DNA from: Gluconacetobacter azotocaptans
Lineage (GTDB): Bacteria; Pseudomonadota; Alphaproteobacteria; Acetobacterales; Acetobacteraceae
Length of the DNA stretch: 64,000 nucleotides
Assembly: GCF_014174355.1 (NCBI RefSeq)
Contig: NZ_JABEQF010000001.1
Coordinates: 248,001 to 312,000, forward strand
Reading direction: 5' to 3'
Part shown: piece after piece, positions 7,969 to 42,143 of the stretch
How positions within the stretch are numbered: the first letter of the stretch is position 1
Layout of the letters: every line of letters begins with the position of its first letter
Notes under the pieces: model-generated
What the model was told of the DNA's origin: nothing
What the model saw: only the letters and a program-made list of their open reading frames with translations
The model's database searches: none
Program-made: the position numbers and the translations under genes

Positions 7969-7987
7969 AATTACCGATCCTGCCCCA

Positions 7988-9361: not shown

Positions 9362-9726
9362 GAATGACTTCCCGTCCACATGCCGTCGTGATGGATGATA
9401 CCCGCAATGGTGCAGCGCACCTGGCGCGTCGTCTCCTGATCGATCGGTTCGGAAGGATCGGTGCTGAACAGCGCGATCCGGTCCCCAAGGGCGCAGTGCT
9501 GTCCGGGCACGACGTCGATTTTCCGAAGATAGACGGTCTCGCGCAACACCAGCCGATAGAACGACACGGGCGGGCATTCCTGGGCGAAGGCGCTGCTGAG
9601 ATCCACGCTCAGATCCATCAGCTTGCTTCCCAGACGAAGCGAATCGTCCCTTGCTCCGTAAAGACATTCTATGGTGGCGCCGGACATCTGCGGAACGATG
9701 ACGGGAAGCTTGAATTCGTAAAGCAT
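9358..9726 (-). CDS. Lipoyl-domain-like protein lacking the lipoylation lysine
   Basis: A 122-residue protein that aligns by eye from end to end with the lipoyl carrier at 15128. Both begin M-[LI]-Y-x-x-x-[LV]-P-x-x-VP, and both end in LR-[KE]-I, a PG turn, C-A-x-G, then ALFS. Where the carrier has ETHKA with the modifiable lysine, this protein has DLSVDL, so it cannot carry lipoate at that site. I chose ATG 9726 because it matches the carrier's start. The last four bases overlap the downstream SGNH-like gene. It may be a structural or binding version of a lipoyl domain, held next to a partner SGNH-like protein. Function is unknown. Confidence 0.6.
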   Translation of the reverse strand: MLYEFKLPVIVPQMSGATIECLYGARDDSLRLGSKLMDLSVDLSSAFAQECPPVSFYRLVLRETVYLRKIDVVPGQHCALGDRIALFSTDPSEPIDQETTRQVRCTIAGIIHHDGMWTGSHS

Positions 9727-9867
9727 TATCGGTCCCATTATATGAAAGAGACGATTGATTCGGAGCATGCAACGAATACGAACAAACAGGACGATACTCT
9801 GGACGACGGTTCCTACAACGATCCTGATATCAGCGGGTTTTCCGCAGTGTCCTAAAAAAGCCTTATT

Positions 9868-11064: not shown

Positions 11065-11123
11065 CGACGCTCTCCGGGAAACGTATGTCAGCTCCGAAAA
11101 CGCCCCGGGCCGGGGTAACGCCC

Positions 11124-11504
11124 TTACGACGCGCGCGCCATCAGCACGACGCCGGAGACGATCACGACCAGCCCTACGACCCGCATCGGATGGATGTCCT
11201 CGCCCAGAAAGACGATACCGGCGAGGACGGTCAGCACGATGCCGAACGCGACGCAGGGATAGGCCTGGGATACGTCGATACGCGCCAGCACCAGCAGCCA
11301 CACGACAGCGCTGAGGCCGAAGGCCAGCAGGCCCAGCACGACGGGCACATTCAGCGCGATCACCGACACCGCGTCCCAGACGCCGGCCCGGCTGGCGATC
11401 GCAGCCTGGACCGCTCGGTCGGACATTCCCGTCTTCAGCAGGATCTGGGCGGACGAGGACAGCAGCACGCTGACGAGGACAAGGCCGATCGTTCCGAAAG
11501 TCAT
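11124..11504 (-). CDS. Small four-helix DMT/SMR-type membrane protein, ArnE/ArnF-like flippase candidate
   Basis: A 126-residue protein with four hydrophobic helices, the size and layout of the small multidrug resistance / EamA-half group. It has SAQILLKTGM after helix 1 and IDVSQAYPCV before helix 3, a pattern seen in ArnE/ArnF-type flippases of lipid-linked aminoarabinose. Its ATG overlaps the stop of the preceding GT-C-like gene by four bases (ATGA), so the two are translationally coupled. Next to a UbiA-type prenyl-phosphate glycosyl donor enzyme and a GT-C-like protein, flipping a polyprenyl-phosphate sugar across the inner membrane is the most economical role. A drug-efflux role is less likely in this setting but not excluded. 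Confidence 0.7.
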   Translation of the reverse strand: MTFGTIGLVLVSVLLSSSAQILLKTGMSDRAVQAAIASRAGVWDAVSVIALNVPVVLGLLAFGLSAVVWLLVLARIDVSQAYPCVAFGIVLTVLAGIVFLGEDIHPMRVVGLVVIVSGVVLMARAS

Positions 11505-13222
11505 GGTGTGGATACCCCTGGCACGGCGAAGACGCAAAGACGGTCAAATCGGGCTGCCGGCGGCAGTGAATAGGGCTGCGTGCAACCATCGACCACGTAG
11601 GCAATGCCGTGATCCGCGGCATAGGACAGGCGTTGGGGAAGCGTCTTCAATGTTCTTACCTCCGTTATCCGGGTTTGCCATGTCTGGTAATAGGCGGGCG
11701 CCCACATCACGGCGGCCCCGGCCTGGGAAAATACCCAGGCCTGCCGGTGCGAGAAATAGGGAAATACGACGCCGCCTTCGAACAGCTGTTCCTGATCCGC
11801 ACTTGTCTTGGGAAACACGCCCGAATCCCGCAAGGCCCCGGGGGGGGCGAGAAATACGGCATCCGGCTTCGTCTGCGTCCTGGCCCATGTACCCACGGCC
11901 TGCCACTCGTCTCGTTGCGCGACATAGGCACGGTCGGACGTGACGGCGTGGTAGATCCGCGCCGCGTTGTACAGCACCACCGGCAGAAGCAGGGCCGCCG
12001 GCGCGTAAACGCGCCACGAACTGGAGAGGGCGGGCGATGTCCGATGCCACAGCAAGAGCGGAATGGCCAGGGGCAGCAGAAGTTTGATCGAGCAGGACAG
12101 CAGGACGAGTACCGGCGCCCACACCAGGCGCTCCGTCTCGTCGCGGGAAAATATCCATCTGGTGGACAGGGTCGCGATGGCGGTCGCCGCCAGCAGATGC
12201 ACGCTGCTTCCCGATCGCAGCAGGTGCAGGTTCAACAGCATGCGCGCATGGGTCGCGAAGGGCAGAAAGGCGCCGAAGATCCAGACGGTTGCGGCCCCGC
12301 ACAATGCGGCTGTCAGATACGAATTGGGCGCGCGCAGCATCTGCGCGGCGATCACGCCGCAGCAGAAAATGCTCGCCAGAAGGCATGCCTCCCGGAACGA
12401 GATGGTCCATATCAGGAAATGATCTGGAAAGAATGACGTCAGATAAGTGATGTAATCGAAATCTGTTGCCGGCCTGACATACGGATTGACCAGGATGTTG
12501 TAGACGACGGGCGCGGCCAGCAGACCGAAGAGCGCAAGCCCGGCGCACCCTTGCAGCAGAAGCGCCGTCCAGGTCCATTTGTGCCGTCGCCATTGGGACA
12601 ACAGGATGAAGGCGAGGGGAACCGCGGTCCAGACCGCGATGAACGCGTTGATGAAGAACGTCACGCCGTTCATGGCGAAGGCGGCGGTGACCCGCCCCCG
12701 CGCCGCCCAGGCCAGGGCCAGCAGCGTCGTTCCGTTGGCCAGTTCGGATTGCGTGAAGTTGTTGATCAGCAGGCCCCCGCCGCCCGCATTGGAAAAGGCA
12801 TGCAACGTCGAGGACACGGCGAGAAGGGCCGTGAATACCAGACGTTCCTTCGGGCTTTCGAGCCCCAGGAGGCTCGCCCATGACAGGAAGCCGAGAAACA
12901 GAAGGGTTCGCGACAGGATCTGGAATACGAACAGAATCGCGTAAACGTCCTGGCCATGTACGCGGTCGGACAACAATTGCCAGAAGCCGGACGAATAGAA
13001 GCGCAGGCTCTGGATAAACAGGTCATTCGCGAATTGAGGTTCGTTATACAGCCCGGCCAGGATGGAGAGATGATAGAAATTGTTGAGCTGCCCACCGATC
13101 TGTCCCGACAGCACGATCGACAGGAACGCGCCGAACGAGGCGATGGCGAACGTGGCGCACCAGTCCGGCACGCGTCGTACGCGCAGGGTCGTAGCACTCG
13201 GCAGGGTGGTGGAGCCCGTCAT
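11501..13222 (-). CDS. Polytopic membrane protein, GT-C-like glycosyltransferase candidate
   Basis: A 573-residue inner-membrane protein with about 11-13 hydrophobic segments and a soluble C-terminal domain of about 130 residues (GTWARTQT onward). The architecture is that of GT-C glycosyltransferases, which use polyprenyl-phosphate sugars on the periplasmic side. No single diagnostic motif is certain, but acidic residues follow the first helix, as expected (FANDLFIQ). It is flanked by a HAD-UbiA enzyme (93 bases upstream) and an SMR-like flippase overlapping its stop. This fits a make-flip-transfer set for a lipid-linked pentose. A similar, unrelated-looking membrane protein is encoded at 55186. 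Confidence 0.65.
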   Translation of the reverse strand: MTGSTTLPSATTLRVRRVPDWCATFAIASFGAFLSIVLSGQIGGQLNNFYHLSILAGLYNEPQFANDLFIQSLRFYSSGFWQLLSDRVHGQDVYAILFVFQILSRTLLFLGFLSWASLLGLESPKERLVFTALLAVSSTLHAFSNAGGGGLLINNFTQSELANGTTLLALAWAARGRVTAAFAMNGVTFFINAFIAVWTAVPLAFILLSQWRRHKWTWTALLLQGCAGLALFGLLAAPVVYNILVNPYVRPATDFDYITYLTSFFPDHFLIWTISFREACLLASIFCCGVIAAQMLRAPNSYLTAALCGAATVWIFGAFLPFATHARMLLNLHLLRSGSSVHLLAATAIATLSTRWIFSRDETERLVWAPVLVLLSCSIKLLLPLAIPLLLWHRTSPALSSSWRVYAPAALLLPVVLYNAARIYHAVTSDRAYVAQRDEWQAVGTWARTQTKPDAVFLAPPGALRDSGVFPKTSADQEQLFEGGVVFPYFSHRQAWVFSQAGAAVMWAPAYYQTWQTRITEVRTLKTLPQRLSYAADHGIAYVVDGCTQPYSLPPAARFDRLCVFAVPGVSTP

Positions 13223-13314
13223 GTTATACCATCCGCGTTATGAATGATTTTCTGGCGGTACGCCTCATGCCCGACCTGTCCTGTCGTATGTGTCACCGCT
13301 TTCGCCGCCTGGCA

Positions 13315-14754
13315 TCAGATCGAGACCAGCACGACCAGAAGCGAGACTGCGACCGCGTAGCGGCAGGTGCGATCGCGCAACGCCCAGATGACGGGGTCGT
13401 CGTGCATCTGGCGCCGATGCGCGACCAGCAGCGCGCGTGCAAGGATGAACAGCAGAATGGGCGACAGGATCCAAAGAATGTACGGGTGGGTATACATCTC
13501 TCTGACCGAATCGGACGTAATATACAGGGTGAACACCGTGACGGCATTTGTCCCGCAGGCCGCCGCCAGCGCCGCCAGGATCATCAGGTCGTCCTTCCGG
13601 TAGGCCCGGCTGCTCGATTCCGGAAGATTGCCGTCCAGCCGGACGAGAAGTTCGGTGTATCGCTTGATCAAGGCCAGGGAAGTGAAGACGAACAGCGAGA
13701 ACGCCAGGATCCATTCCGACAGAAGGATGCCTGTCGCCGCCGCCCCCCCGATCAGCCTGGCCGTGTAGAGCAGCGCAAGTCCCACGACGTCGCCGAGCAT
13801 CTTGCGCTTGAGCCAGAAGGAATAGCAGGTGGTCAGGGCGACATAGCCGGCCAGCGTGACCGAGAACATCCATGGCAACACAAGACAGGCGGCAACGGCG
13901 CCCAGAGCCAGTATCGGGATGGCCCTCAGGGCAGAATGGACCGACAGGGCGCCACTGGCCAACGGACGCCGTCTTTTTGAGGGATGCAGACGGTCATCGC
14001 TCAGATCGACCATATCATTCAGCAGATATATGGCTGAGGCGGTGACGCAGAAGGCCAGGAACGCGACGCAGCTTGCGGCCAGCGTTGCGATATGAAAGGC
14101 ATGCGCGGCCAGAGCGGGCAGAAACACCAGAACGTTTTTCGCGTATTGGTGGACCCGAAGCGCCCGCGCCCAGATCTTAAGGGTGTGACGTGGCTTTTCG
14201 ATGACGTCGACGTTCTCGAACGCATTCAGCTTCCTGAGTGAGCGGGCATCCAGTCCGATGGCATGGCAGCGATGGGCGTGACGCCAGATTGCCAGGTCAT
14301 GGCGGTGGTTGCCGACATAATCGAACCCCTTGTCGCCGAAAGCGTCGACCAGTACGCGCGCCTTGTTGGCGCCTGCCAGATTGTGGCGCTTGTCGCTGGC
14401 GAACAGCCCGTCGAAACTGCCGAGATGGTCGGCCACCGCATGGGCAAATCGTTCGTTCGAAGCCGTGGCCAGATAGACCGGTCGTCCCTCCATCCGGGCG
14501 TCGTCGATCAGCTGCAGAATGGCTTGATGATAGGGCAGCGTCGAGGCGTCGATCTCGGCATGCGAAGCCACGGCCTGCTTCAGATGAGCCCGCCCGCGCA
14601 ACAGCGAGAAGAGCAGGGCCGGCAGGGCCGCGGGATTTCGCCCGACGCAGTTGAAAAAGGATTCTATGAGAAGATCCGACGCTATCAGCGTGCCGTCCAG
14701 ATCGACAACCAACGGATGCGAGTGGGTTTGACCCAGGGACACTGCTATGTTCAT
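13315..14754 (-). CDS. HAD phosphatase-UbiA prenyltransferase fusion, decaprenyl-phosphoribose-synthase-like
   Basis: A 479-residue fusion. Residues 15-190 form a HAD-type phosphatase domain (VVDLDGT with Asp18/Asp20; TASN near 97; GNHRHDL near 148). Residues 195-479 are a UbiA membrane domain with nine or so helices and the prenyl-pyrophosphate/metal motif NDMVDLSDD at 246-254. UbiA proteins with this sequence style belong with decaprenylphosphoryl-5-phosphoribose synthase, which moves ribose-5-phosphate from PRPP to polyprenyl phosphate. A fused HAD domain could then remove the 5-phosphate. It is the first gene after a 373-base AT-rich gap that probably holds its promoter. The donor product is inferred, not shown. 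Confidence 0.75.
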   Translation of the reverse strand: MNIAVSLGQTHSHPLVVDLDGTLIASDLLIESFFNCVGRNPAALPALLFSLLRGRAHLKQAVASHAEIDASTLPYHQAILQLIDDARMEGRPVYLATASNERFAHAVADHLGSFDGLFASDKRHNLAGANKARVLVDAFGDKGFDYVGNHRHDLAIWRHAHRCHAIGLDARSLRKLNAFENVDVIEKPRHTLKIWARALRVHQYAKNVLVFLPALAAHAFHIATLAASCVAFLAFCVTASAIYLLNDMVDLSDDRLHPSKRRRPLASGALSVHSALRAIPILALGAVAACLVLPWMFSVTLAGYVALTTCYSFWLKRKMLGDVVGLALLYTARLIGGAAATGILLSEWILAFSLFVFTSLALIKRYTELLVRLDGNLPESSSRAYRKDDLMILAALAAACGTNAVTVFTLYITSDSVREMYTHPYILWILSPILLFILARALLVAHRRQMHDDPVIWALRDRTCRYAVAVSLLVVLVSI

Positions 14755-15127: not shown

Positions 15128-15433
15128 TCAGGTCACCTCGAAATCGACCAGGATGTCGGTTGCCGCCGCGTCGCCTTCGGGCAATGGCTCATCCGCGCTG
15201 TCCGAGAAGAGCGCCAGGCGCAGGCCGACAGCGCACCAGTCTCCGGGCTCGGCCTTTATTTCGCGCAGGATTCCAGCCTGGCCGGCACGGACCTCGACCA
15301 CCGCCTTGTGGGTTTCCAGTTCGACAATCAGGTCACCCGCTGCAAATGTCGATCCCGCGCCGCCATGCCATTCCAGGATCCGGATTTCCTCGACGCCCGG
15401 TACCGCGGCGGGAACTGACAATTGATAGATCAT
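15128..15433 (-). CDS. Free-standing lipoyl-carrier domain protein
   Basis: A 101-residue protein consisting essentially of one lipoyl/biotinyl domain. The modification hairpin reads ELETHKAVVEV with Lys43 as the expected lipoylation site. The ETxKA context is typical of lipoyl rather than biotinyl domains (which have MKM). It lacks the subunit-binding and acyltransferase core of an E2. AAGGAGG lies at ideal spacing before ATG 15433. It follows E1beta by 28 bases, so it probably accepts an acyl group from the E1alpha/E1beta pair. With no E2 core or E3 in the window, the acyl-lipoyl may be used by another enzyme in the locus, which is inference. A lipoyl-less paralogue lies at 9358. Confidence 0.8.
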   Translation of the reverse strand: MIYQLSVPAAVPGVEEIRILEWHGGAGSTFAAGDLIVELETHKAVVEVRAGQAGILREIKAEPGDWCAVGLRLALFSDSADEPLPEGDAAATDILVDFEVT

Positions 15434-15461
15434 TACTGTCCTCCTTGTTGTCTGGGTGGTG

Positions 15462-16451
15462 TCAGCGCGTGAGCAGCGTGCGGATGGCGTCCGCCACGCG
15501 GGGCGCGTCGGGGATGCAGGCGGCCTCCAGTACCGGATTCGACGAGACCGGGGCGGGAAGGGCGCCGATGCGCATCCATGGTTTCGGACCGGTCCGCTCG
15601 AAGGTCCGGGTCGCCACTTCGGTGCCGACGCCGCAGACGGTCTGGCCTTCCTCCAGGGTCAGCAGGCGGCCGGTCCGTTCGACGGAGCCCGCCACGGTGT
15701 CGATGTCCAGCGGCGCCAGACTGCGCAGGTCGATGACCTCGCAGGATATGCCGTCCTGGGCCACGATCTGTGCGGCGTCGCATGCCACGCGCATCATGTA
15801 GCCGTGGCTGACCAGGGTCAGGTCGGTTCCCTCGCGCCGTATGCAGGCCTGCCCGAAGGGAATGGAGGTTTCCGTGACCGGTACGTCGCCGGGTGTCGGA
15901 AAAAGCCGCTTGTGGTCGATATAGACCACCGGCCCGTCGCTGCGCAAAGCCGTCTTCATCAGGCCGTAGGCGTCGGCGGGCGTCGAGGGGGCAACGACCC
16001 GCAGGCCCGGGACGCTCATCAGCCAGGCTTCGATGCATTGGGAATGGGCCACACCCTGTCCCTGGGCGCCCGCCGTGGTCTTGACCACCATAGGCGCCGA
16101 AAGGCCGCCCGCCGTCTTGTAGCGCAGCTTGGCCGCGTAATTGATCAGGGCGTCGAAGCCCAGCATCAGGAAATCCATGTAGGTGATGCTGACCAGCGGC
16201 CGATAGCCCGCCGCCGCCACGCCGGCGGCGATGCCGACGGTGGCAGCCTCGGCGACCGGGGTGTCGCGTATGCGCTCCGGCCCGAATATCTTGTACAGCC
16301 CGTCGAATTCCCGATACGAGCCACCGAAGGAGCCGACGTCCTGGCCCAGGATCAGGACATGGGGGTCCCGCGTCATTTCCTCGCGCACCGCGCGTGTCAC
16401 CGCTTCGCGGAAAAACATCCGGGCCATGACCGGCTTTTGTTCATACAACAT
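15462..16451 (-). CDS. 2-oxoacid dehydrogenase E1 component, beta subunit
   Basis: A 329-residue TPP-dependent E1beta subunit. It contains the activating Glu68 (DTPVAEAATVG), the active-site His136 in GQGVAHSQCIEAW, and the C-terminal transketolase-like domain (VIDLRSLAPLD). Such subunits pair with E1alpha to decarboxylate a 2-oxo acid and reductively acylate a lipoyl domain. An AGGAGG site nine bases upstream fixes ATG at 16451, so the gene overlaps the end of E1alpha by 11 bases. It belongs to the acetoin/branched-chain dehydrogenase type by length. Substrate is unknown. Its position among glycosyltransferase and SGNH-like genes, not with E2/E3 genes, is unusual. Confidence 0.85.
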   Translation of the reverse strand: MLYEQKPVMARMFFREAVTRAVREEMTRDPHVLILGQDVGSFGGSYREFDGLYKIFGPERIRDTPVAEAATVGIAAGVAAAGYRPLVSITYMDFLMLGFDALINYAAKLRYKTAGGLSAPMVVKTTAGAQGQGVAHSQCIEAWLMSVPGLRVVAPSTPADAYGLMKTALRSDGPVVYIDHKRLFPTPGDVPVTETSIPFGQACIRREGTDLTLVSHGYMMRVACDAAQIVAQDGISCEVIDLRSLAPLDIDTVAGSVERTGRLLTLEEGQTVCGVGTEVATRTFERTGPKPWMRIGALPAPVSSNPVLEAACIPDAPRVADAIRTLLTR

Positions 16452-17376
16452 GTCGCAGAACCTCCTGTGCCGCCGGGTAGGGCGATGCCTCGGCGTAGGC
16501 CATGGCCTGTGCGATTTCCGTCGCCGCGTCCTGGCGCATCTGCTCCAACTGCGCGTCGTCCAGCATGCCGTCCGCCTGCAGGGCGTCGGCATGGCGCCGG
16601 ATCGGGCAATGGGTCTGCAGTTCGGCCAGTTCGGCGCGGCTGCGGGTTTCCCGGGCCGTCGTGGAATGCGACCGCAGGCGAATGGATTTGCATTCCAGGA
16701 AGGCCGGCCCCAGACCGTCGCGGACGTAACGCACCGCATCGCGTGCCGCCGCCGCGACGCCCTGCACATCCAGCCCGTCGATGGTGCGGGTCCACATGCC
16801 GAACGTGGCACCCAGGTCCGACAGATTGGCCACCGCCAGCGCCGCATCGCGCGTGGTCGAGACCGAAAGCTGGTTATTGTTGCAGACGAACAGGATCGGC
16901 AGTTTCCACTGTGCCGCCATGTTCATGGTCTCGTGCAGGGCACCCGCGCCGCAGGCCCCGTCGCCGAACAGGATGACGACGATGCCGCCGTCGCCGTCCA
17001 GCTGCCGGGCCATGGCCACCCCGGCGGCGATGCTGATATTGCCGCCCACGACGGCGTGCGCGCCGAAAAAGCCCACCTCCGGGTCGGACATATGGCCGCG
17101 TCCCGCGCGGCCCTGGTTCATGCCGCCGGACTTTCCCAGCAATTCCGCCATGACCCGTTCCGGCGCGACGCCACGGGCCAGTGCCGGACCGATCGAGCGC
17201 CCACCGGTCAGCAACTGGTCCCCGGCGCCCAGTGCCGAGGCCAGGCCGACGGCGACGGCTTCTTCGCCAGATGACAGCAGCTGGAAACCATGCTCCTTCC
17301 GGCGGGCCAGCGTGTCCTCGAAGGTGCGGATCATCAGCATGGCGCGCAGGGCGCCCACGGGATCGATATGGGTCAT
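16441..17376 (-). CDS. 2-oxoacid dehydrogenase E1 component, alpha subunit
   Basis: A 311-residue E1alpha with the thiamine pyrophosphate motif GDG (138-140) followed about 26 residues later by NNN (166-168), and the GRGHMSDP/FFGAHAVVGGNI region at 92-114. The usual YRDHGH segment is replaced by GGRSIGPALARG at 58-69, so a conserved active-site histidine appears to be missing, which could alter substrate or activity. It works with the E1beta that overlaps its 3' end. Its ATG overlaps the stop of the SGNH-like gene at 17373 by four bases. This coupling ties the decarboxylase to the polysaccharide gene set. Confidence 0.85.
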   Translation of the reverse strand: MTHIDPVGALRAMLMIRTFEDTLARRKEHGFQLLSSGEEAVAVGLASALGAGDQLLTGGRSIGPALARGVAPERVMAELLGKSGGMNQGRAGRGHMSDPEVGFFGAHAVVGGNISIAAGVAMARQLDGDGGIVVILFGDGACGAGALHETMNMAAQWKLPILFVCNNNQLSVSTTRDAALAVANLSDLGATFGMWTRTIDGLDVQGVAAAARDAVRYVRDGLGPAFLECKSIRLRSHSTTARETRSRAELAELQTHCPIRRHADALQADGMLDDAQLEQMRQDAATEIAQAMAYAEASPYPAAQEVLRHVV

Positions 17377-18239
17377 TGCGGTTTCAGTCCCATCAGTCTG
17401 ACCATGCCGGACGTCAGCAGGCCGAGGCTTTCCTGCACGCCCCGTCGCCGGACCGCGTGAATGAGTTTGTCTGCCGCCTGGCGTGGCGGGATCTGTCCCT
17501 TCAGCACCTGCCGGATCAGCCAGCCGACATGGTTGTCCTGGACTGAGTCGGTAATGGTGGAGACGACCTGCCGTCGCCGGCCCTTGCCCATGGTCATCAG
17601 ATTGCCCGGAACAAGATCGGGCGGGGGCTGGATGGCGGGCCGGCTGGCGGTAATCGCCCGCTTGACGCGCTCCTGCGCTTCGAAGGGCAGGGCGGCGTCC
17701 AGGGCGTTGTCCACGATTCCCAGCGCCAGCGCATGGCCCGCAAGCTCGGCGGCGTCATGGCCGTCCATGCCGTAATCGGTCATTACCCGCACGGCGCCGA
17801 CATCGCTGAATATCCTGTCCAGATCAATGACGAAGAGGCCATAGGCGCGTGACAGCTCCGTCGCCAGCAGATTCAACCGGCGCAGGCGCACCAGGATGGC
17901 CTCGGCGCGATCAGGGTCGCGCTGCGCGCCGATATGACGAAAGATGGTGGTGACAAGGACCGGGTCGCCGCTGTCGCACAGGGCGGCGTAGTCCTGGCGA
18001 AGCCGCTGTTCGACCTCGCTCCAGGGGGTATCCAGCCGCTCCAGCCCCAGCTCCGGCGTCAGCGAGGCGATGCGGATCGTGCCGGCCGCCGCCGTCCGCA
18101 AGCCGTCGAAATCCGCGACCGTGGCACAGGCCAGCTTCGCCCCTTCATCGGCAAGGCCGGCCTGCAGGATCTGGGCAGCCCTGGCCACGGTGGCCTGTTC
18201 GCCGGGGGGGACGAAGGCCGCGACGGATATCTGCGTCAT
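17373..18239 (-). CDS. SGNH-like protein, divergent, without recognisable catalytic serine
   Basis: A 288-residue protein of no named family. Its middle aligns by eye with the SGNH-like protein at 19291: L-R-R-L-N-L, then ELS, G, and VIDLD (residues 138-141) against I-R-R-F-N-L, ELS, G, IVDVD. A block VLVTTIFRH at 94-102 corresponds to ILVHNLSS in the other. A late His161 in MDGHDAAE may replace the SGNH Asp/His pair, but its Asp is at -2, not -3. No N-terminal GDS is present, nor a signal peptide. Four-base overlaps on both sides (GT2 upstream, E1alpha downstream) show tight coupling. It may act on the acyl group made by E1/lipoyl carrier, which is speculation. Confidence 0.55.
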   Translation of the reverse strand: MTQISVAAFVPPGEQATVARAAQILQAGLADEGAKLACATVADFDGLRTAAAGTIRIASLTPELGLERLDTPWSEVEQRLRQDYAALCDSGDPVLVTTIFRHIGAQRDPDRAEAILVRLRRLNLLATELSRAYGLFVIDLDRIFSDVGAVRVMTDYGMDGHDAAELAGHALALGIVDNALDAALPFEAQERVKRAITASRPAIQPPPDLVPGNLMTMGKGRRRQVVSTITDSVQDNHVGWLIRQVLKGQIPPRQAADKLIHAVRRRGVQESLGLLTSGMVRLMGLKPQ

Positions 18240-19288
18240 TGGAATATCCCCTGGTCGGCAGGGCAGGAGGCGGACGGCGCGGCGCAGGCTGCCAGATAGG
18301 CCGCGCGTACCGCGTCGCGCCCCTCCAGGCCGTCATAGGCCGCGGCGACGCGCGCCAGTTGCGGCAAGGATAGGATTCGCGATGTTTCGAGTACGGTCTT
18401 CTCGTCGCTCAGGCTTTGCCAGAGCAGCGGCAGCAGGGCCACGTCGGCGCGGGGATGGGCGGTATAGAAGATGTCTTCCCAGTTCTTGTCCTGCAGGGGG
18501 TCGCGCCAGCCGCTGCGATGGATCATGTGATAGCTGCGCGCGGTGGTGGCCGTCATTTTTCCGCCGGCGTGGCAAAGCCGCAAAGCCAGCTCGCGATGTT
18601 CGTTGATCGAGAGATCAGGGTGGAAACCGCCGGAGTCCAGAAAGGCGTCGCGGACGACCGACTGGTTGGCGCCGGCGGCCGCGGCCCACAGGATACCGCA
18701 ATCCTCGTCGTCCCTCAGGGCTTCCATTTCCAGTTCATAGAGCTTGCGCGGGCCATATCCCGGATAGACGCCGGGCTGCGCACGGCCGTCGATTTCGTCG
18801 AACCGGCTTCTGATCTGTTGGCGGGTGACCCGGGCGCGGTCCATCTCGGCGGGGGACATGCGGGTCACCCGTTCTTCATGGCCGGGCTGGGGTGTGCCGG
18901 CCTCGGGGTCGCGGAACGGGCGCGTGCATCTCAGGTGAAAATTCTCGCCGCGAACGATCAGGTCCGGCCGCAGGCGGTGGCGTTGCATGTGCTGGGCGAC
19001 CAGGTCGGGCGCTGCCAGCGTATCGCCGTCCAGGAAGATCAGGATGTCCCCGCTGGCATGCGCGGCCCCGGCATTGGCGGCGGCGGACCGGCCGGCCGGC
19101 TTCGCATGATGCACGGCCACAAGGTCAAGATCGCGCGGGGCCTCGGCGATGACCGACGCCGTGTGGTCGGTCGAACCGTCGTTGACGACCACGACCTCCG
19201 CCGCTTCGGTTTGACAGGCCAGGGAGGTCAGGGTCAGGCGCAGGCGGTCTGCTTCGTTCATGGAACGGATGACGACAGTCGCGTGCAT
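18236..19288 (-). CDS. Family 2 glycosyltransferase
   Basis: A 350-residue GT2 enzyme with a GT-A nucleotide-sugar fold. VVVNDGSTDHT lies near residue 36, FLDGDT near 92 provides the metal-binding acidic motif, and NEHRELALRL near 228 corresponds to the catalytic-base ED region. It has no membrane helix, so it should act at the inner face of the membrane. The first Met in frame (19294) sits only two or three bases after GGAGGAG, so I prefer the Met at 19288. The stop overlaps the next SGNH-like gene by four bases. Sugar donor and acceptor are unknown. Confidence 0.85.
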   Translation of the reverse strand: MHATVVIRSMNEADRLRLTLTSLACQTEAAEVVVVNDGSTDHTASVIAEAPRDLDLVAVHHAKPAGRSAAANAGAAHASGDILIFLDGDTLAAPDLVAQHMQRHRLRPDLIVRGENFHLRCTRPFRDPEAGTPQPGHEERVTRMSPAEMDRARVTRQQIRSRFDEIDGRAQPGVYPGYGPRKLYELEMEALRDDEDCGILWAAAAGANQSVVRDAFLDSGGFHPDLSINEHRELALRLCHAGGKMTATTARSYHMIHRSGWRDPLQDKNWEDIFYTAHPRADVALLPLLWQSLSDEKTVLETSRILSLPQLARVAAAYDGLEGRDAVRAAYLAACAAPSASCPADQGIFQ

Positions 19289-19290
19289 GG

Positions 19291-20088
19291 TCATTTCTCC
19301 TCCGCACTATCGAGCACGCCCAGGTCGGCAAGCACGCGTACGGCTTCTTCCGCAACGCGCCTGTACCCTTCGGGTGTTAGATGGAACGTATCGAGTTTCA
19401 GCCTGTCCGCGCCATGGCGGGCGATGACGGCATCCACGTCCACAATGGATATGCCGATCGTCGCCGAAAGTTCCACGAGGGCCAGGTTGAAACGTCGTAT
19501 ACGTGTCGAAAATGTTTCATCCAGGCCCAGATAGCAGTGGACCCCGTCGCCCGGGACGACCGACGACAGATTATGGACCAGAATCGGGACATCCCGTTCC
19601 TGGTGCAGTCTTTCGACAATCTGCGTCAGATTGTCCATCGACTGCTCGACCGTCAGAAAACCGGTCGTCTTGAATTCCGATCGCAACCATCGCCTGTCCG
19701 CGTCCGTCCAGGTGGCGGTGTCGGCGGGATACAGAAGATATTCCTCCGTCCGGTGGCGCACCAGTTCGGTGGCCACGTCCGGAAGGATCGACAGGAAAAT
19801 GGCGTCGGCAGGCGTTGTGAAAAGCGCCTTGCTGAACTGGCTGGTCGTCGGATAGTTGCCAAGCGGCATGGTGCGCTCGGCCAGGGAGGCCGGAACGGTG
19901 CCGGTCGCGGCAAGAACGGCGTCCGAACGTGTCAGGGTTTCATGGCGCAGGCGCGTCGACAGGCCCGGATAGGAGCCGCGCAGGATCTCGTTGATGCCGT
20001 TCCACTGCACCGTGCCGCCGATCCGGCAGGAATGCAGGGCATCATGGACATCGACATTGCCTTTGGCGAAGAGGGTCAGCCGCTTCAT
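19291..20088 (-). CDS. SGNH-hydrolase-like protein with altered nucleophile region
   Basis: A 265-residue protein with the C-terminal half of an SGNH hydrolase: ADAIFLSILPD at 94-104, ILVHNLSS at 169-176, IVDVD at 215-219, and DTFHLTPEGYRR at 233-244, where Asp233 and His236 form the DxxH pair. At the N-terminus, where GDS would be expected, the sequence is KGNVDVHDAL, so the catalytic serine is not evident. There is no signal peptide. It precedes a GT2 gene with a few bases of overlap and follows a 68-base AT-rich gap. Members of this fold are esterases or acyltransferases. An acyl-transfer role on a sugar is a reasonable but unproven guess. Confidence 0.65.
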   Translation of the reverse strand: MKRLTLFAKGNVDVHDALHSCRIGGTVQWNGINEILRGSYPGLSTRLRHETLTRSDAVLAATGTVPASLAERTMPLGNYPTTSQFSKALFTTPADAIFLSILPDVATELVRHRTEEYLLYPADTATWTDADRRWLRSEFKTTGFLTVEQSMDNLTQIVERLHQERDVPILVHNLSSVVPGDGVHCYLGLDETFSTRIRRFNLALVELSATIGISIVDVDAVIARHGADRLKLDTFHLTPEGYRRVAEEAVRVLADLGVLDSAEEK

Positions 20089-20156: not shown

Positions 20157-21005
20157 TCATGTCGCGGTTGCCGGCGAAGGCGACCGGTATCCGGCAAGCC
20201 GGCCGAAAAAGGTCATGACGTAATATCGGCCAATCAGAAAATCGAACTTTGCGAAATTGACCAGGGCGCCACCGATCGGGCGAAGCAGGAAACGGGCGAC
20301 TGTTGCCCCGTCGCAGCGATTCTTGCGCATGACCCGCCCCATGCCGAGCCCGTACGGGAAGGCCCGCGACACATTCAGGGCCACCGGTTTGTCGGGATGA
20401 ATGATCCGCAGCCGGTGGATGTAGCGTCCGGACGCGCCGCCCGACAGCATGCGCAGGGCGAGATCCTGTCCTTCCCCCGACCCGAAGCGTGTGCCCGGCC
20501 CAAGTGTTTCGTCAAATCCGCCGACGATTTCGAAAAGGGGCCGGCGGATGAACAGGTTGAACTCGATCAGGCACGTCCACACGGTCTGGCTGTCGATGGC
20601 GCTGTCATGTCTCAGCCATCGGCCCGACCGCCCTGACGTGCCGCCGGGCAGGATGACCGACCCCGTAAGGAAGCCGGTTCCCGGATCGTTACGGAAAAAC
20701 TGATCGACCTGCATCAGGACATCCTGCGTGTATTCGCAATCGTCGTCGGGGAATGTGATGATGTCGCCGGTCGCATGCCGCGCGCCCAGGTTCCGGGCAT
20801 GGTTGCACAGGCGCACCGCGCTGCGCAGGTGAAGGATGCGCAGGTGGTCGGTGAATTCGGCAATGACGGGATCGAGGCGGTTGTCGTCATTCTGGTCCAC
20901 GACGATGATCTCGAACGATCGGACGGCCTGCATGGTCAGGGACCGCAGAAGGCAGCGCACTTCGTCGGTGCGCCCCAGGGTCGGCACGATAAGGGAAAAG
21001 CGCAT
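20157..21005 (-). CDS. Family 2 glycosyltransferase
   Basis: A 282-residue GT2 protein. It shows an N-terminal SLIVPTLGR strand, VVDQND near 35, the metal motif FPDDDCEY near 85-92 and a catalytic region with GSGEGQDLALR near 195. It lacks transmembrane helices apart from a hydrophobic tail near YYVMTFFGRL. It is one of four predicted GTs in the - strand half of the locus and lies 25 bases downstream of the next GT2 gene. The sugar specificity is not readable. Confidence 0.85.
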   Translation of the reverse strand: MRFSLIVPTLGRTDEVRCLLRSLTMQAVRSFEIIVVDQNDDNRLDPVIAEFTDHLRILHLRSAVRLCNHARNLGARHATGDIITFPDDDCEYTQDVLMQVDQFFRNDPGTGFLTGSVILPGGTSGRSGRWLRHDSAIDSQTVWTCLIEFNLFIRRPLFEIVGGFDETLGPGTRFGSGEGQDLALRMLSGGASGRYIHRLRIIHPDKPVALNVSRAFPYGLGMGRVMRKNRCDGATVARFLLRPIGGALVNFAKFDFLIGRYYVMTFFGRLAGYRSPSPATAT

Positions 21006-21030
21006 GGCGTATCGTCCGATGAGGAGGTGT

Positions 21031-21918
21031 CTACAGCGTCAGTATGCGTTCGGGCGCAATACGGCCCCGCAGCATATCGACAAGGGCCAGTCCGTTGCCG
21101 ATGAGACGGCCCCGACGATCGACATAGGGTTCGGGCCGCAGGCTGAAGATCAGATTCATCGCGATATTGCGGCCGACGCTGCGCAACGTGTGGTCCCAGG
21201 GAAAGGTGCCCTTGCGCGACAGGTAGACCGGATTGGCGACCTGCGAATATCCCAGGCGCCGGCCGGGGGTGCGGCCCGTCTTGGTGCCCATGTGAATGCC
21301 CTTGGCGCTGTTGACCTTGACGATGCGGCCGTGGCGGCCCAGGCGCCGGGAAAAATCGATATCCTCGTACCAGGCATAAAGCGGCAGGCGTTCGTCGAAA
21401 CGAACCCCATGTCGCCTGATTTCGGACATGCGGAAGGCCATGTTGCAGCCATAGCTGCTCCATACCGTCTCGACCGGCGGCAGGTTCGGGTTGTCGTTGA
21501 CCGTCGGATCGGCCAGCATCGCCAGCGCGGCTTCGGACGAAATGCCCGGCCCCTTTGCGCCATCGGCAAGGACCCGGCCGGTTGCGGCGGAAATGGTCGG
21601 GTCGGCCTGAAACGCCTGCACGCACTGAAACAGGTAATCCCGGTCCGGGATGAAATCGTCGTCGAAGAAGACAATAAGATCGGTGTCCTGGGCATGAGAC
21701 AGCACGACGTTGCGCTGATGCGGCGCGCCCATCGGCCCCTGAAGCAGAACGAGGTCATGGGCTTCGACCAGTCCCGCCGCGTCGGACGGGCGGGGGGTGC
21801 AGACGACGATGCGTTGCACGGGGTAGCTCTGGTTTCGTAGTTCGTCGATGGTCTCGCGCAGAATGGCGGGACGTCCGCAACTGACGATGGCGATGGTGAC
21901 GGTCAAGGGTGTCTTCAT
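21031..21918 (-). CDS. Family 2 glycosyltransferase
   Basis: A 295-residue GT2 enzyme (TVTIAIVSCGRP start, VFFDDDF near residue 85 as metal motif, WYEDIDFSRRLG near 190 as catalytic-base region). The ATG at 21918 shares a base with the stop of the upstream GT4-type gene (TGATG), so translation is coupled. A GTG one codon earlier is a possible alternative. It probably transfers one sugar of the repeat unit on the cytoplasmic side. Confidence 0.85.
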   Translation of the reverse strand: MKTPLTVTIAIVSCGRPAILRETIDELRNQSYPVQRIVVCTPRPSDAAGLVEAHDLVLLQGPMGAPHQRNVVLSHAQDTDLIVFFDDDFIPDRDYLFQCVQAFQADPTISAATGRVLADGAKGPGISSEAALAMLADPTVNDNPNLPPVETVWSSYGCNMAFRMSEIRRHGVRFDERLPLYAWYEDIDFSRRLGRHGRIVKVNSAKGIHMGTKTGRTPGRRLGYSQVANPVYLSRKGTFPWDHTLRSVGRNIAMNLIFSLRPEPYVDRRGRLIGNGLALVDMLRGRIAPERILTL

Positions 21919-23117
21919 CACATGGTTCCGGCTTGCGAGTACACGGGCGGGTGCCTGTGCGGCATCGGGGTTGGGGCTGTCGGCGAGCGGATGCGGGCTT
22001 CCGACAGCAGATCGCGCGACAGTTCGACATGTCGCGCGACGTAGGCACGGGAATTCAGGCAGTCGCGCATCCGCTGTTGGGCATGGGCGACCATCGCGGC
22101 CTGGCCTGCCGGATCCGCCGCCAGTTCGACGATGGCGCGCGCCAGGGCCGGCGCATCCCCGACCGGCACGTACCGGATGGCGTCGTCGCCGAAATAATGG
22201 CGCAGGCCGCCCACGTCGCTGGCGATGACCGGTACCCCGCGCGCTATCGCCTCCTGGATGGCCGTGATACCCGATGCATGCTGGTTGGGACCGACCGGCA
22301 CCACGACCAGATCCGCCTGGTCGTACAGGCCGAACAGTTCCGTATTGTTCGTCAGCGTCGCCAGCGTCACATGCGCCACCGTGGAAAGCATCCGGCGTGC
22401 CGCGCGATCGGTGGTGGCAATGGTCACCTTGCAGGGAAGGTCGGACGTCGCCTTCAGCAGGGTGTTCCAGTCGCGGTGCCGGTCATTGCCCAGGGACAGT
22501 ACGCGGATCGGCGCGCCCGGAGGCATGCCGCGCGGGGGGCGAACGATCATTTCGTCGATCCGGATGCCGAATTCCATCAGCGCCATGCGCCGGTCGGGAA
22601 AAATCCCGGCGGCCTGGTTCATGTTGCAAGGGGACAGGAAGGTCAGGATATCCGCACGGGAGAGAAGGTTGCGGAAGACGAGACGATTTTTCCACGATTC
22701 CTTTGGCCAGCGATCCATCAGCCAGACGCTCTGCGCGATCGTCCGGGGATGCCGGCGCCGGGGAAACAGGCGCAGGACCATCTGGACCGCCAGGGACTGG
22801 GATTCGGTATGGGTCCAGACGACGTCGCTGCCCAGGATGGCGGCACGGTTCCGCCACGCATGAACGAAATCGAAGCCCAGGAGCAGGCGCGCGCCATAGC
22901 GGAGCAGACGCCCGGGAAGCCCTTCCGGGGCATCCTCGGATTGGGTGATGGTAAAACCTGGTTCGGATGCGCGCAGATAGCCGTAGGCATATTCCTCATT
23001 CAGGCCCAGGATGCGCCCTTCCTGCCACCGCCGATGCCACGTCGTGGCCCCGTAGCCGTAACTGAGCTGCACGAAGGCGCGTATGGGCTGCCCAGCTTCG
23101 TTCTTTGGCATATACAT
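21918..23117 (-). CDS. Family 1/4 (GT-B) glycosyltransferase
   Basis: A 399-residue GT-B protein. The C-terminal Rossmann half contains VRVLSLGNDRHRDWNTLL near 200 and the donor-binding segment GITAIQEAIARGVPVIASDVGG near 300-321, which is diagnostic of GT4-type retaining enzymes. The N-terminal half is less typical (SYGYGATTWHRRW). ATG at 23117 begins MYMPKNEAG. An upstream extension in the same frame crosses the small secreted-protein gene and is unlikely. It belongs to the exopolysaccharide operon between the small secreted protein and the GT2 genes. Confidence 0.85.
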   Translation of the reverse strand: MYMPKNEAGQPIRAFVQLSYGYGATTWHRRWQEGRILGLNEEYAYGYLRASEPGFTITQSEDAPEGLPGRLLRYGARLLLGFDFVHAWRNRAAILGSDVVWTHTESQSLAVQMVLRLFPRRRHPRTIAQSVWLMDRWPKESWKNRLVFRNLLSRADILTFLSPCNMNQAAGIFPDRRMALMEFGIRIDEMIVRPPRGMPPGAPIRVLSLGNDRHRDWNTLLKATSDLPCKVTIATTDRAARRMLSTVAHVTLATLTNNTELFGLYDQADLVVVPVGPNQHASGITAIQEAIARGVPVIASDVGGLRHYFGDDAIRYVPVGDAPALARAIVELAADPAGQAAMVAHAQQRMRDCLNSRAYVARHVELSRDLLSEARIRSPTAPTPMPHRHPPVYSQAGTM

Positions 23118-23131
23118 GTCCTTTCCCGGGG

Positions 23132-23530
23132 TCAGAAAACCCCGACGCTGACGATCGCGACGTTTCGTGCGGCCATGCGGCCGATCTGGGTGGCGCGGGC
23201 GGTGGCGGCGGTCGACTGCTTCGCGGACTGATGGCAATAATTGCCTTCCAGGCCCAGATGCAGGCCGTAGCGCGCATTGACGGTTCTGCCGAACCGTCCG
23301 CTGTACGCCCTGGCCGCCATGAAGGACCCCGTGCCCAGCCGGGTCACGCCGCTGACATACAGGACGCCGCCACTCGGGACGCTGCACCATATGACCGTGG
23401 GCGGGCGCACCGGCTGGGCTGCCATGTCCGGGTCGTCCTGTGCGCTGGCCGGGCGGCACGTCGCGACGGCAAGGAGGACAAGACCGCACAGTGCCGTCAC
23501 GCGGCGGCCGATGGGGAAAGCGGACTGCAT
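23132..23530 (-). CDS. Small secreted protein of unknown function
   Basis: A 132-residue protein with an N-terminal Sec signal (RR, then a hydrophobic stretch ALCGLVLLAVATC, and cleavage after PASA). The mature part is about 100 residues with two cysteines (WCS and NYCH) and a Gly-rich middle (TRLGTGSFMAARAYSGRFG). I recognise no family. GGAGG precedes ATG 23530 at good spacing, and the longer in-frame start at 23575 is less likely. It lies between the Wzc/GumC-like gene and the first GT-B gene, so a periplasmic role in polysaccharide export is plausible but unsupported by any motif. Confidence 0.6.
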   Translation of the reverse strand: MQSAFPIGRRVTALCGLVLLAVATCRPASAQDDPDMAAQPVRPPTVIWCSVPSGGVLYVSGVTRLGTGSFMAARAYSGRFGRTVNARYGLHLGLEGNYCHQSAKQSTAATARATQIGRMAARNVAIVSVGVF

Positions 23531-23596
23531 CAATGCCTCCGGCCTGGGGGTATCGGGTGCCTGTCTATTGCTCATCGCCGCCCGATGCCCTCTGTC

Positions 23597-25819
23597 CTAC
23601 GATGTCAGCAGGCCGTACTGGCTGTAGATGCCCAACTGCCGCCGTTCGGACTGTTCGAGCCCGCGTGACGGCACCTGCGTCAGCACGCCGCCCAGAACGC
23701 GGGCGTCGTAGGCGTGCAGGATGCGCATGCCCTCGGCCAGCGCCGACGGCGCCGTCAGCCCCCATTTGACGACCATCACGACGCCGTCGGTCTGCTGCGC
23801 CAGGACGGCGGCGTCGGGGAAGGCCAGGACCGGCGGCGTATCCAGGATGATCATGTCGTAGTGGGGCGAAAACTGCGCCAGGATCCGGCTGAGTTCCAGC
23901 GGCGAGACCATCGCGCAATTGCGTTCGTTCCGGGGGCGGAGGGTCAGGATATCCACCCCGGGCAGCACGTCGCGCGTCAGCCCGCCCGCCCCGGGGTTGA
24001 GGGGAAGGGTATTGTCACCCGGCCGGTCCGACTTGCCCACGACCGCCAGGGCCGAGGGATTGCGTGTGTCGCAGTCGATGACCAGCGCGCGCTGCAGGTC
24101 CCGGCCCGTATTGGCGGCCAGGGACACCGCGAAGGTCGTCTTGCCTTCTCCGGGGCTGGCCGACGTGACGAGGACCACCTTGGCCCGGAAGCGGCTGTGG
24201 CCGAAGCACAGGATGCTGCGAATGGCTTCGATCGTCTCGACATAGGCCGAGGACGTCCCGCCCGAGCGGTAATGTCGCGCCAGGCCGCCGCTCAACGCCG
24301 GGACCAGGCCCAGGGTGAACAGCCCGGGCACCGAGTCCAGCTGGGACGTGCTGCGGATGCCGTTGCGGATCCGGTCGATCACCAGGGCGGCGCCGGTACT
24401 GAGCATCAGCGAAAACAGGACGGCGATGGCCATGTATTGCATGCGCGGCGGCCCGGAGATACCCAGGGGCGTCTCGGCGTGGGAAATCAGTTCGGCCTCC
24501 GGCTCCTGCAACTGCGCCTGCGTCGATGTCTGTGCGAAGCGGCCCAGATAGTCCTGATAGACGGCGCGCGCGGCGTTGGCCTCGCTGACCAGCTGGCGCA
24601 GGCCGACATTCGCCTGGTTTTCGCTGGTGACCTGGTGCTGCAAGGCATCCACGGCGCGGCTCAACGCGGTGACGCGCGCCTGGGCGGCACTGACGTCCTT
24701 GGCGACGCTGTCGGCGATGCGGGCGGTTTCGGTGCCGATCTGGCGCTGGACCTGAGCCTCGGCCGCCTGCGCGGCCTTCAGCTCGGGATTGCCGTCCAGA
24801 TAGGTCTGGCTGAGGGTAGCGACGTGGCTGCTGAGCTGGGCGCGCTGCGTCTGGAGTTGTTGGACCAGCGGGGCCGCCACGACTTCGGGCAGGCTGCCCA
24901 GCGTGCCGTTGCGCGCCGCGTCGCGGACCTCCATGTAGCGCGAGCGCTTTTCCTCGAGAATGCCCTGCGCGACCATCAGCTCCTGGTTCATCTGCGTAAG
25001 CTGCTGATCGGCGACGGTCGACATGTCCACGCCGCCGCCGCCGGGGCCGGGCTGCTGCTCCATGCGGGCGGAAATCAGCCCGTTCTGTTCGCGGAATGCC
25101 TCGACCGCCTGCTCCGCCTTGCGCAGCCGTTCGCGCAGCGGCACGATCTGGTCGTCCAGAAGGGAGTTGGCCCGCCAGGTCGCCGCGACCTTCATCTGGC
25201 GCCGGAAGTTCAAATAGACGTCGGCATAGGCATTGGCGATGCGTGCGCTGGAGGCCGCATCGGCGGTCTTGGCCGTGATCGTGATGATGTAGGATCGGCC
25301 GTCATTGAGGATGTTGACCTTGTTGGTCAGCATCATGGCCGTGATCTGAAGGCGTTGGGCCGGCGTCAGGGGCGTTGTCGGCGCGGGCGGATGGCCCGTG
25401 ATCGTGAACACGGTGTTCATGATCTTCGCCTTGAGGGGAACGTGCTCAAGCGCCTCGCGGAATTCGGGATCGTCGACCAGATGCAACTGCTTCACCACGG
25501 CGGTCGCGATCGCGGGGCTGCGCAGGATGCTGACCTGGGTGTTGATGACCACCATGTCGATGTCGGCGCCCGAGGTCGTGGCCTGCAGGTCCCGGAACGG
25601 TGTCTGTCGTGTTCCCATCAGCAATGCGGACGATGCGGTGTAGTACGGCTTCATCTGCTGGATCGCGAACACGGCCGGAAGGCTGAGCCCAAGGGTGATC
25701 AGCGCGACCGTAAGACGGTGGCGACCCAAGGCGCCGAACACCTGTGTCGGGGACGCCTGCTGAACCCCGGAGTGGTCTGCCGGCAAGCCACTCAGTGACG
25801 CTAGCTGGAGCTGGTTCAT
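23597..25819 (-). CDS. Polysaccharide co-polymerase / BY-kinase, Wzc/GumC-like
   Basis: A 740-residue chain-length and export protein. A Wzz-type N-terminal membrane helix (about residues 30-50) is followed by a long periplasmic coiled-coil region, a second helix near 440-460 and a cytoplasmic P-loop ATPase: Walker A SPGEGKTT and Walker B MIILDTPP. It resembles Wzc and fused GumC-type proteins. The C-terminus (YSQYG) has two tyrosines rather than a long Tyr cluster, so autophosphorylation may be limited. It should link the inner-membrane polymerase to the outer-membrane Wza/GumB-like lipoprotein encoded at 29063. ATG 25819 begins MNQLQL; the upstream frame is a shadow of the sugar transferase gene. 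Confidence 0.9.
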   Translation of the reverse strand: MNQLQLASLSGLPADHSGVQQASPTQVFGALGRHRLTVALITLGLSLPAVFAIQQMKPYYTASSALLMGTRQTPFRDLQATTSGADIDMVVINTQVSILRSPAIATAVVKQLHLVDDPEFREALEHVPLKAKIMNTVFTITGHPPAPTTPLTPAQRLQITAMMLTNKVNILNDGRSYIITITAKTADAASSARIANAYADVYLNFRRQMKVAATWRANSLLDDQIVPLRERLRKAEQAVEAFREQNGLISARMEQQPGPGGGGVDMSTVADQQLTQMNQELMVAQGILEEKRSRYMEVRDAARNGTLGSLPEVVAAPLVQQLQTQRAQLSSHVATLSQTYLDGNPELKAAQAAEAQVQRQIGTETARIADSVAKDVSAAQARVTALSRAVDALQHQVTSENQANVGLRQLVSEANAARAVYQDYLGRFAQTSTQAQLQEPEAELISHAETPLGISGPPRMQYMAIAVLFSLMLSTGAALVIDRIRNGIRSTSQLDSVPGLFTLGLVPALSGGLARHYRSGGTSSAYVETIEAIRSILCFGHSRFRAKVVLVTSASPGEGKTTFAVSLAANTGRDLQRALVIDCDTRNPSALAVVGKSDRPGDNTLPLNPGAGGLTRDVLPGVDILTLRPRNERNCAMVSPLELSRILAQFSPHYDMIILDTPPVLAFPDAAVLAQQTDGVVMVVKWGLTAPSALAEGMRILHAYDARVLGGVLTQVPSRGLEQSERRQLGIYSQYGLLTS

Positions 25820-25863
25820 GGCATGGTCTCTCGCATCGGGGCAAAAGGGAATGTCAACGGCGG

Positions 25864-42135: not shown

Positions 42136-42143
42136 GGGCGGCC

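Follow-up and report, generated by a model that had tools for sequence, protein, structure and literature searches.

A nine-gene unit combining a 2-oxo acid dehydrogenase-type E1 pair with a free lipoyl domain: distribution, conserved residues and a possible role in acylation

To our knowledge, lipoyl thioesters have been described for 2-oxo acid dehydrogenases and glycine cleavage alone, and Hdr-like sulfur oxidation is one more process that employs a lipoyl carrier. The nearest precedents for the locus described here are LbpA, a lipoate-binding, GcvH-like protein whose gene is linked to hdr-like and mostly lipoate-protein ligase genes (PMC6067878), and the E1 pairs of branched-sugar clusters (PMC4425429); this gene set appears in neither, as far as the accessible parts of the two papers show. 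We analyzed a 64,000-nucleotide stretch of the Gluconacetobacter azotocaptans genome (contig NZ_JABEQF010000001.1, positions 248,001 to 312,000; hereafter, the window). At 15128-20088 of the window, an initial annotation had placed genes for two SGNH-like proteins (sgnh1, sgnh2), a family 2 glycosyltransferase (GT2a), the alpha- and beta-subunits of a 2-oxo acid dehydrogenase-type E1 (E1a, E1b) and a free lipoyl domain (lip1). These six genes are two thirds of a larger nine-gene unit, the cassette, whose remaining members, sgnh3, lip2 and tgl (7988-11064), were found through comparison with relatives.

A nine-gene unit in scattered bacteria

The members of the cassette in the window are as follows:

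sgnh1: 19291..20088, minus strand; SGNH-fold protein (Lipase_GDSL_2, 9.7e-8)
GT2a: 18236..19294, minus strand; family 2 glycosyltransferase (PF00535 Glycos_transf_2, 7e-21)
sgnh2: 17373..18239, minus strand; divergent SGNH paralogue (resembles sgnh1 by BLAST and alignment)
E1a: 16441..17376, minus strand; E1-alpha (PF00676 E1_dh, 2.5e-59)
E1b: 15462..16451, minus strand; E1-beta (PF02779 Transket_pyr, 2e-37; PF02780 Transketolase_C, 5e-30)
lip1: 15128..15433, minus strand; free lipoyl domain of 101 residues (PF00364, 4e-11)
tgl: 9868..11064, minus strand; transglutaminase-fold protein (PF01841, 6.5e-17)
lip2: 9358..9726, minus strand; lipoyl-fold protein without the lysine (hhalign to lip1)
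sgnh3: 7988..9361, minus strand; large protein with a beta-rich N-terminus and an SGNH domain (model and structural match)

In a coordinate check, the positions given by the initial annotation held, all six genes being on the minus strand, as did the four-base overlaps that it gave at 18236 and 17373; a further overlap of four bases lies at 19291, between sgnh1 and GT2a. Its 11-base overlap at 16441 exists if E1-beta starts with the ATG at 16451, but not if a later ATG (MARMFF) is used. The product of lip1 (15128-15433) is, as claimed, a free lipoyl domain of 101 residues, with Lys43 in the motif ETHKA and a Biotin_lipoyl match at 4e-11. As for the two SGNH-like proteins, the match of sgnh1 to Lipase_GDSL_2 is scarcely above the cut-off, and sgnh2, for which no Pfam match was found at E<=0.1, is so called by its resemblance to sgnh1 only.

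A scan with an sgnh1 profile, using one genome per species, matched 79 stretches, 31 of them encoding a relative. Three were dropped as repeats (L022 of L014, L050 of L021 and L052 of L015), which leaves 28 scan loci; adding the window itself and four whole-genome loci gives 33 distinct loci. The complete set of nine genes is present in 22 of these 33, and GT2a in every one. Seven of the 11 incomplete loci are flagged as cut by a sequence end; L042, L045, L048 and L049 are not. In L048, the place of sgnh2 is taken by an open reading frame (ORF) that matches GDSL weakly (E 0.012), and L049, an 8.9-kb contig, carries an SGNH-like ORF, lip2, GT2a, sgnh1, sgnh3 and tgl, with E1a, E1b and lip1 not found. 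In L045 (cassette at 7971-14334), an ORF of 214 residues that matches no Pfam family stands where sgnh2 would be; this locus lacks E1a and E1b throughout its 20.8 kb and retains lip1 together with its lysine, as if E1 served only as a loader.

Gene order, counted among the nine cassette genes, is tightly kept. E1a and E1b are neighbors in this order and on the same strand in 28/28 loci, sgnh2 and E1a likewise in 25/25 (an epimerase-like ORF lies between them in L040), and both pairs mostly touch or overlap, with start positions being estimated. E1b and lip1 are adjacent in 26/26, with gaps of <=73 bases, lip2 and sgnh3 in 23/26, and sgnh1 and GT2a in 24/33. Since this order is shared by distant hosts, chance adjacency of the genes can be ruled out.

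The cassette is rare, tightly conserved and found in scattered bacteria. Within the family, sgnh2 was found in 4 of 150 genomes, and E1a of the cassette type (E<=1e-70) in the same four; within the class, sgnh1 was found in 2 of 385 genomes, and these are also the only two among 372 with a strong lip2 match (E<1e-45). With the threshold relaxed to E<=0.001, lip2 matched 11/372 class genomes, the nine weaker ones at E 3e-5 to 9e-4. Two of these nine, L091 and L096, were inspected and rejected as cassette members, being ordinary-looking lipoyl domains next to another E1 pair. In both stretches (L091 1456-3243; L096 1-1791), genes for E1-alpha and E1-beta accompany that of a free lipoyl domain with the motif EIEKSTNE. 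This set is not related to the cassette, a Rieske oxygenase gene lies nearby, and no E2 was noticed within these 3-kb stretches.

Named hosts include Gluconacetobacter johannae, G. tumulisoli, Novosphingobium flavum, Methylocella silvestris and Methylocapsa palsarum, and metagenome-assembled genomes with the cassette are labelled Acidocella, Hyphomicrobiales, Caulobacteraceae, Burkholderiales, Acidobacteriaceae and Myxococcales. Three further labels, those of L028, L035 and L050 (Verrucomicrobia, Bordetella parapertussis and Kuenenia), seem at odds with the cassette genes and may be binning errors. When plasmids were searched, sgnh1 matched a single record, sgnh3 had no match, and the parts of the Planktothrix locus described below matched only themselves.

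The E1 pair and the free lipoyl domain

The initial annotation had seen neither an E2 acyltransferase core nor an E3 in the window. This was borne out by tblastn with three proteins of the same genome as queries, its own pyruvate dehydrogenase (PDH) E2, its 2-oxoglutarate dehydrogenase (OGDH)-type E2 and its E3-like protein (the last named by eye), which matched only lip1. The same annotation had said that relatives with E3 and an E2 core encoded close by would point to a normal dehydrogenase operon. This arrangement was likewise not seen: across the 33 loci (547,569 bases, several loci being cut short), neither was found at E<=1e-3, and lip1 was again the sole match. The cassette encodes an E1 with its thiamine pyrophosphate (TPP) motif and catalytic Glu and His, and as this search found neither an E2 core nor an E3 with it, an ordinary dehydrogenase operon was rejected. 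The missing E3 is the weak point of this comparison, since an E3 can be shared.

Elsewhere in its genome, G. azotocaptans encodes a PDH, whose E1-alpha is 36% identical to E1a of the window, and an acetoin-dehydrogenase-like E1 (32% identical), as well as LipA and one LplA/LipB-type enzyme. E2 cores are confined to contigs C10 and C12, the second E2 being taken for that of OGDH, and the E3-like protein, as judged by eye, lies on another contig than the cassette. These proteins on other contigs speak for a reading of the cassette as one more front end of 2-oxo acid dehydrogenase type, in which housekeeping E2 and E3 would serve lip1 and acyl-CoA would be made for a nearby acyltransferase. We consider this very unlikely, given the confinement of E2 cores to C10 and C12 and the character of the cassette E1b proteins, which form a lineage apart and are tied to SGNH and lip2 genes. 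They are 59-97% identical to E1b of the window, while the best non-cassette E1b is 46% identical among the matches listed (299 genomes of the phylum), and in a tree all 26 cassette proteins form one clade against 33 others, with support of 1.0.

Residues expected of a working E1 are conserved (in these and the following counts, copies shorter than 60% of the window protein, namely one E1a and two GT2a, are left out). The GDG of the TPP motif and the loop His237 are present in 27/27 E1a proteins, Glu68 and His136 in 28/28 E1b proteins, and Lys43 in 27/27 lip1 proteins. E1 therefore looks active from its sequence, and loading of lip1 by E1 is, in our judgement, likely.

PDH-like E1 pairs have been published from branched-sugar clusters (PMC4425429), and with a GT2 gene in the cassette, E1 might instead be a carboligase that adds a two-carbon branch to a sugar, as has been proposed for AviB1/AviB2 and Pau11/Pau12, with the lipoyl proteins being regulatory or accessory. 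This seems to us distinctly improbable. The lysine of lip1 is invariant and its gene adjoins E1b wherever the pair could be scored, which points to lipoyl acylation. The paulomycin paper (PMC4425429) nowhere uses the word "lipoyl" in its main text. In addition, there is no nucleotide-sugar gene among the nine, and the sole epimerase-like ORF identified, that of L040, is not common to the loci.

lip2, the SGNH proteins, tgl and the genomic setting

An hhalign comparison (E 2.3e-13) shows lip2 to be a homologue of lip1 that lacks the lipoyl lysine, and where lip1 has the lysine turn, the alignment opens an insertion of eleven residues. Within the loop that replaces this turn, Cys51-Pro-Pro is invariant (28/28).

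The folds of SGNH1 and SGNH3 are predicted from models. An AlphaFold model of SGNH1 (pLDDT, predicted local distance difference test, 92) matches SGNH esterases with Z 17, and all 33 members have a GDSL_2 match at E<=1 (best 1.1e-8). The corresponding model of SGNH3 has pLDDT 86 and a structural match with Z 11; GDSL_2 matches at E<=1 occur in 14/26 members (best 1.3e-6), and the SGNH3 of the window itself has none. The position of the catalytic Ser was taken from the aligned ranges of Axe2 4jj4 (Ser15, according to the title of 4jko) and 5b5l (Ser10, according to its own title), which places it at residue 12 of SGNH1 and 168 of SGNH3 if the first ten residues are ungapped; Ser10 of E. coli thioesterase I (1ivn) concurs with position 168. 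At this position, SGNH1 has Val in 18, Leu in 12, and Asn, His and Ala in one each of the 33 members, and never Ser, and Asp233 (30/33) and His236 (32/33) are mostly kept. In SGNH3, the position is held by Cys168 in 26/26, within a G-x-C that immediately follows strand one of the SGNH domain, accompanied by His423 (26/26) and Asp420 (25/26). Both proteins are thus predicted to have the fold of the SGNH superfamily without its catalytic Ser. The N-terminus of SGNH3 gave an hhalign probability of 20 to a lipoyl-like fold. No signal sequence was recognized by eye in any of the nine proteins, so the SGNH proteins are probably cytosolic.

Searches of solved structures with the SGNH1 and SGNH3 profiles returned two and one matches, respectively, at E 0.1 to 0.3, which we took as chance. 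The N-terminal domain of FkbH, considered as a relative of SGNH1, was set aside as too weak (Pfam E 0.14 for the Planktothrix protein and 0.11 for 1/33 members), and among the papers listed nothing connected SGNH with FkbH.

The Cys-His-Asp triad of the transglutaminase-core superfamily is present in tgl: C269 is kept in 28/28, and H303 and D319 in 27/28, the 28th copy (L037) being cut short there. Three and four tgl BLAST matches lie side by side in L038 (16686-19208) and L039 (3198-8787), respectively. The DGD motif of GT2a is kept in 31/31. A second GT2 family lies near tgl in nine loci, its member in L031 (4854-5708) being confirmed as GT2 by Pfam, and is a possible tenth partner of the cassette.

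Other features of the window around the cassette are:

SMR-like transporter, DUF6798-like membrane protein and UbiA-HAD prenyltransferase (PRK08238): 11124..14754, minus strand; outside the conserved nine
Adjacent polysaccharide cluster: 20157..27345, minus strand; two GT2, a GT4, a Wzc-like protein and a polyprenyl sugar-phosphate transferase (Bac_transf)

The first group separates the two halves of the cassette and is also present in L013, L014 and L023, and UbiA-HAD is found at 40% in L015. Further away, at 41784-45773, the window encodes a molybdopterin oxidoreductase fused to cytochrome c domains.

The initial annotation had regarded its genes as embedded in an exopolysaccharide operon. 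This setting is real in Gluconacetobacter. In the window, the cluster listed above adjoins the cassette, and a polysaccharide cluster also lies beside it in L023 and on the L014/L022 contig, with GT2c- or Wzc-like ORFs by L025, L026 and L027. However, no such cluster was seen beside L029, L032, L038, L040, L045 and L046, six of the ten loci examined, and the window's priming transferase and Wzc-like protein had no BLAST match in these six. From their flanks, 36 ORFs were selected out of rough gene calls, for which the first 25 of 43 Pfam families were considered (the 18 lower-ranking ones lie above E 9e-15 if ranked by E-value); among the matches listed are transporters, a polyhydroxyalkanoate (PHA) synthase, a pseudouridine synthase, a GT20 and four GT2. 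Around the Methylocapsa cassette, a polysaccharide cluster was not observed. The product therefore does not seem to depend on an exopolysaccharide operon.

The loci without a visible polysaccharide cluster would also suit a product that is not a glycan, such as a small molecule or a modified protein, assembled by tgl, forming an amide from a carrier thioester, and the SGNH proteins, with GT2a decorating it. The andrimid-type transglutaminase fold, represented by AdmF, is considered to use thioesters on carrier proteins as substrates. The accessible part of the published work (PMC3826127) describes such a domain in the assembly of andrimid, and the intact tgl triad and the several tgl matches in L038 and L039 would fit such a role. 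Against it stand GT2a, which no locus lacks, the second family common to nine loci, whose L031 member is a GT2, and the polysaccharide genes beside the window cassette, L014 and L023 and by L025, L026 and L027. We consider a non-glycan product unlikely.

A relative of SGNH1 also occurs in a different setting, on plasmid p3 of Planktothrix agardhii (L020 12226-17241). There, in a region with many glycan genes, one protein joins a methyltransferase to an SGNH1-like domain (28% identity over 97%). The same run encodes an AMP-binding fragment, an annotated acyl carrier protein (ACP), a short FAD protein, a further SGNH-like protein (SGNH-TPR) and a protein annotated as hypothetical that has a lipoyl fold. 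Against the lip1 and lip2 profiles, this last protein reaches 34 and 31 bits, compared with maxima of 4.7 and 2.4 in 200 shuffles. This one locus weakly suggests that ACP and lipoyl loading might be interchangeable.

A possible acyl relay and its relation to known systems

We hold with moderate confidence that the nine genes form a biosynthetic acylation cassette in which a lipoyl carrier would replace CoA. From the gene set and the conserved residues we infer lipoylation of lip1, each of the transfers, the acceptor and the acyl group alike. E1-alpha/beta would decarboxylate a 2-oxo acid and reductively acylate the lipoyl group on Lys43 of lip1, and with no E2 core found, the acyl would not be handed to CoA. 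Instead, thioester exchange would carry it to Cys168 of SGNH3, to Cys51 of lip2 or to both of these cassette thiols, a step on which we are evenly divided. SGNH1, with its His-Asp mostly kept and no nucleophile, SGNH2 and the transglutaminase-fold protein might then engage the acceptor and form the final ester or amide linkage, GT2a would add or supply the sugar of the product, and the dihydrolipoyl group would be reoxidized by the shared E3 of the cell. We would give a sugar-containing acceptor an even chance. The broader proposal, that this is a thiol relay without CoA or ACP (from E1 to lip1, then to lip2 and the Cys-type SGNH protein, then to a sugar or amine of a dedicated product) and that lipoyl and ACP loading may be alternative front ends of a single SGNH/lipoyl-fold acylation system spanning Proteobacteria to cyanobacteria, is tentative and, in our view, rather doubtful.

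The hand-off of an acyl group from lipoyl to an SGNH-like protein, as the initial annotation envisaged it, fits the conserved E1 residues, the lysine of lip1, the linkage of the SGNH genes and the Cys of SGNH3. Several observations weigh against an acylation cassette of this kind. The two SGNH proteins that the initial annotation named are probably not nucleophilic, as Ser is absent throughout SGNH1, and in SGNH2 no conserved His was found and no catalytic residues are visible. The 4jj4, 5b5l and 1ivn rows give Cys168 without a gap; the rows of 4jko and 5bn1, which begin at residue 152, agree only if a gap is allowed. Of 27 E1a proteins, 17 carry Asn at the place of the first TPP-motif Asn, nine have Asp and one has Gly (the second is Asn in 26/27), and His63 of human E1-alpha aligns with Ile, so the activity or specificity of E1 may differ. 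L042 appears to be without sgnh2, sgnh3 and a strong tgl match. An E1 with a free lipoyl domain and no noticed E2 also exists outside the cassette, in L091 and L096, where a housekeeping E2 could serve the free lipoyl domains. The basis for a sugar acceptor is a GT2 gene plus, in some hosts, a polysaccharide cluster. On plasmid p3, finally, the lipoyl-fold protein and the ACP fall below the Pfam cut-offs, and the fused SGNH1-like domain is without the Asp-His pair in the alignment.

No published description of the nine-gene set was found in the open-licence PMC literature, as judged by titles and the beginnings of abstracts. If the proposal is true, this conserved unit of E1 and lipoyl carrier without E2 would be a first biosynthetic use of lipoyl thioesters, and would introduce a new type of acyl donor, an SGNH enzyme of cysteine type and an acylated, probably sugar-containing product. 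The cassette suggests, then, that lipoic acid chemistry is also used to build such a product, and its hosts include culturable ones such as Gluconacetobacter, Methylocapsa and Novosphingobium.

Compared with known systems, the cassette shares E1-alpha, E1-beta, the key E1 residues and the lipoyl ETxKA motif with the 2-oxo acid dehydrogenase complexes (PDH, branched-chain 2-oxo acid dehydrogenase (BCKDH) and acetoin dehydrogenase). It differs from them in that E2 core and E3 were not found alongside, in that its lipoyl domain is free and only 101 residues long, and in its E1b, which forms a separate clade with <=46% identity to other E1b among the matches listed. Like LbpA of Hdr-like sulfur oxidation, as the accessible part of that report presents it (PMC6067878), it is a case of a lipoyl carrier outside 2-oxo acid dehydrogenases in a gene cluster of its own; unlike that system, it has an E1, and its nine members include no gene for lipoylation. 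Neither hdr-like nor lipoate-ligase genes are among the nine families, although no search aimed at them was made in the loci. With AviB1/AviB2 and Pau11/Pau12, it shares a PDH-like E1 pair in a sugar-modification setting, whereas those pairs are proposed to form C-C branches rather than to transfer acyl groups, and no lipoyl protein is mentioned in the accessible part of the paper (PMC4425429). SGNH1 and the C-terminal part of SGNH3 have the fold of the SGNH acyltransferases and esterases PatB, Ape1 and Axe2, with Ser changed to Cys in SGNH3 and mostly to Val or Leu in SGNH1, and with a probably cytosolic location. Finally, tgl has in common with the transglutaminase-type amide step of andrimid assembly, in the accessible part of its description (PMC3826127), the transglutaminase fold.

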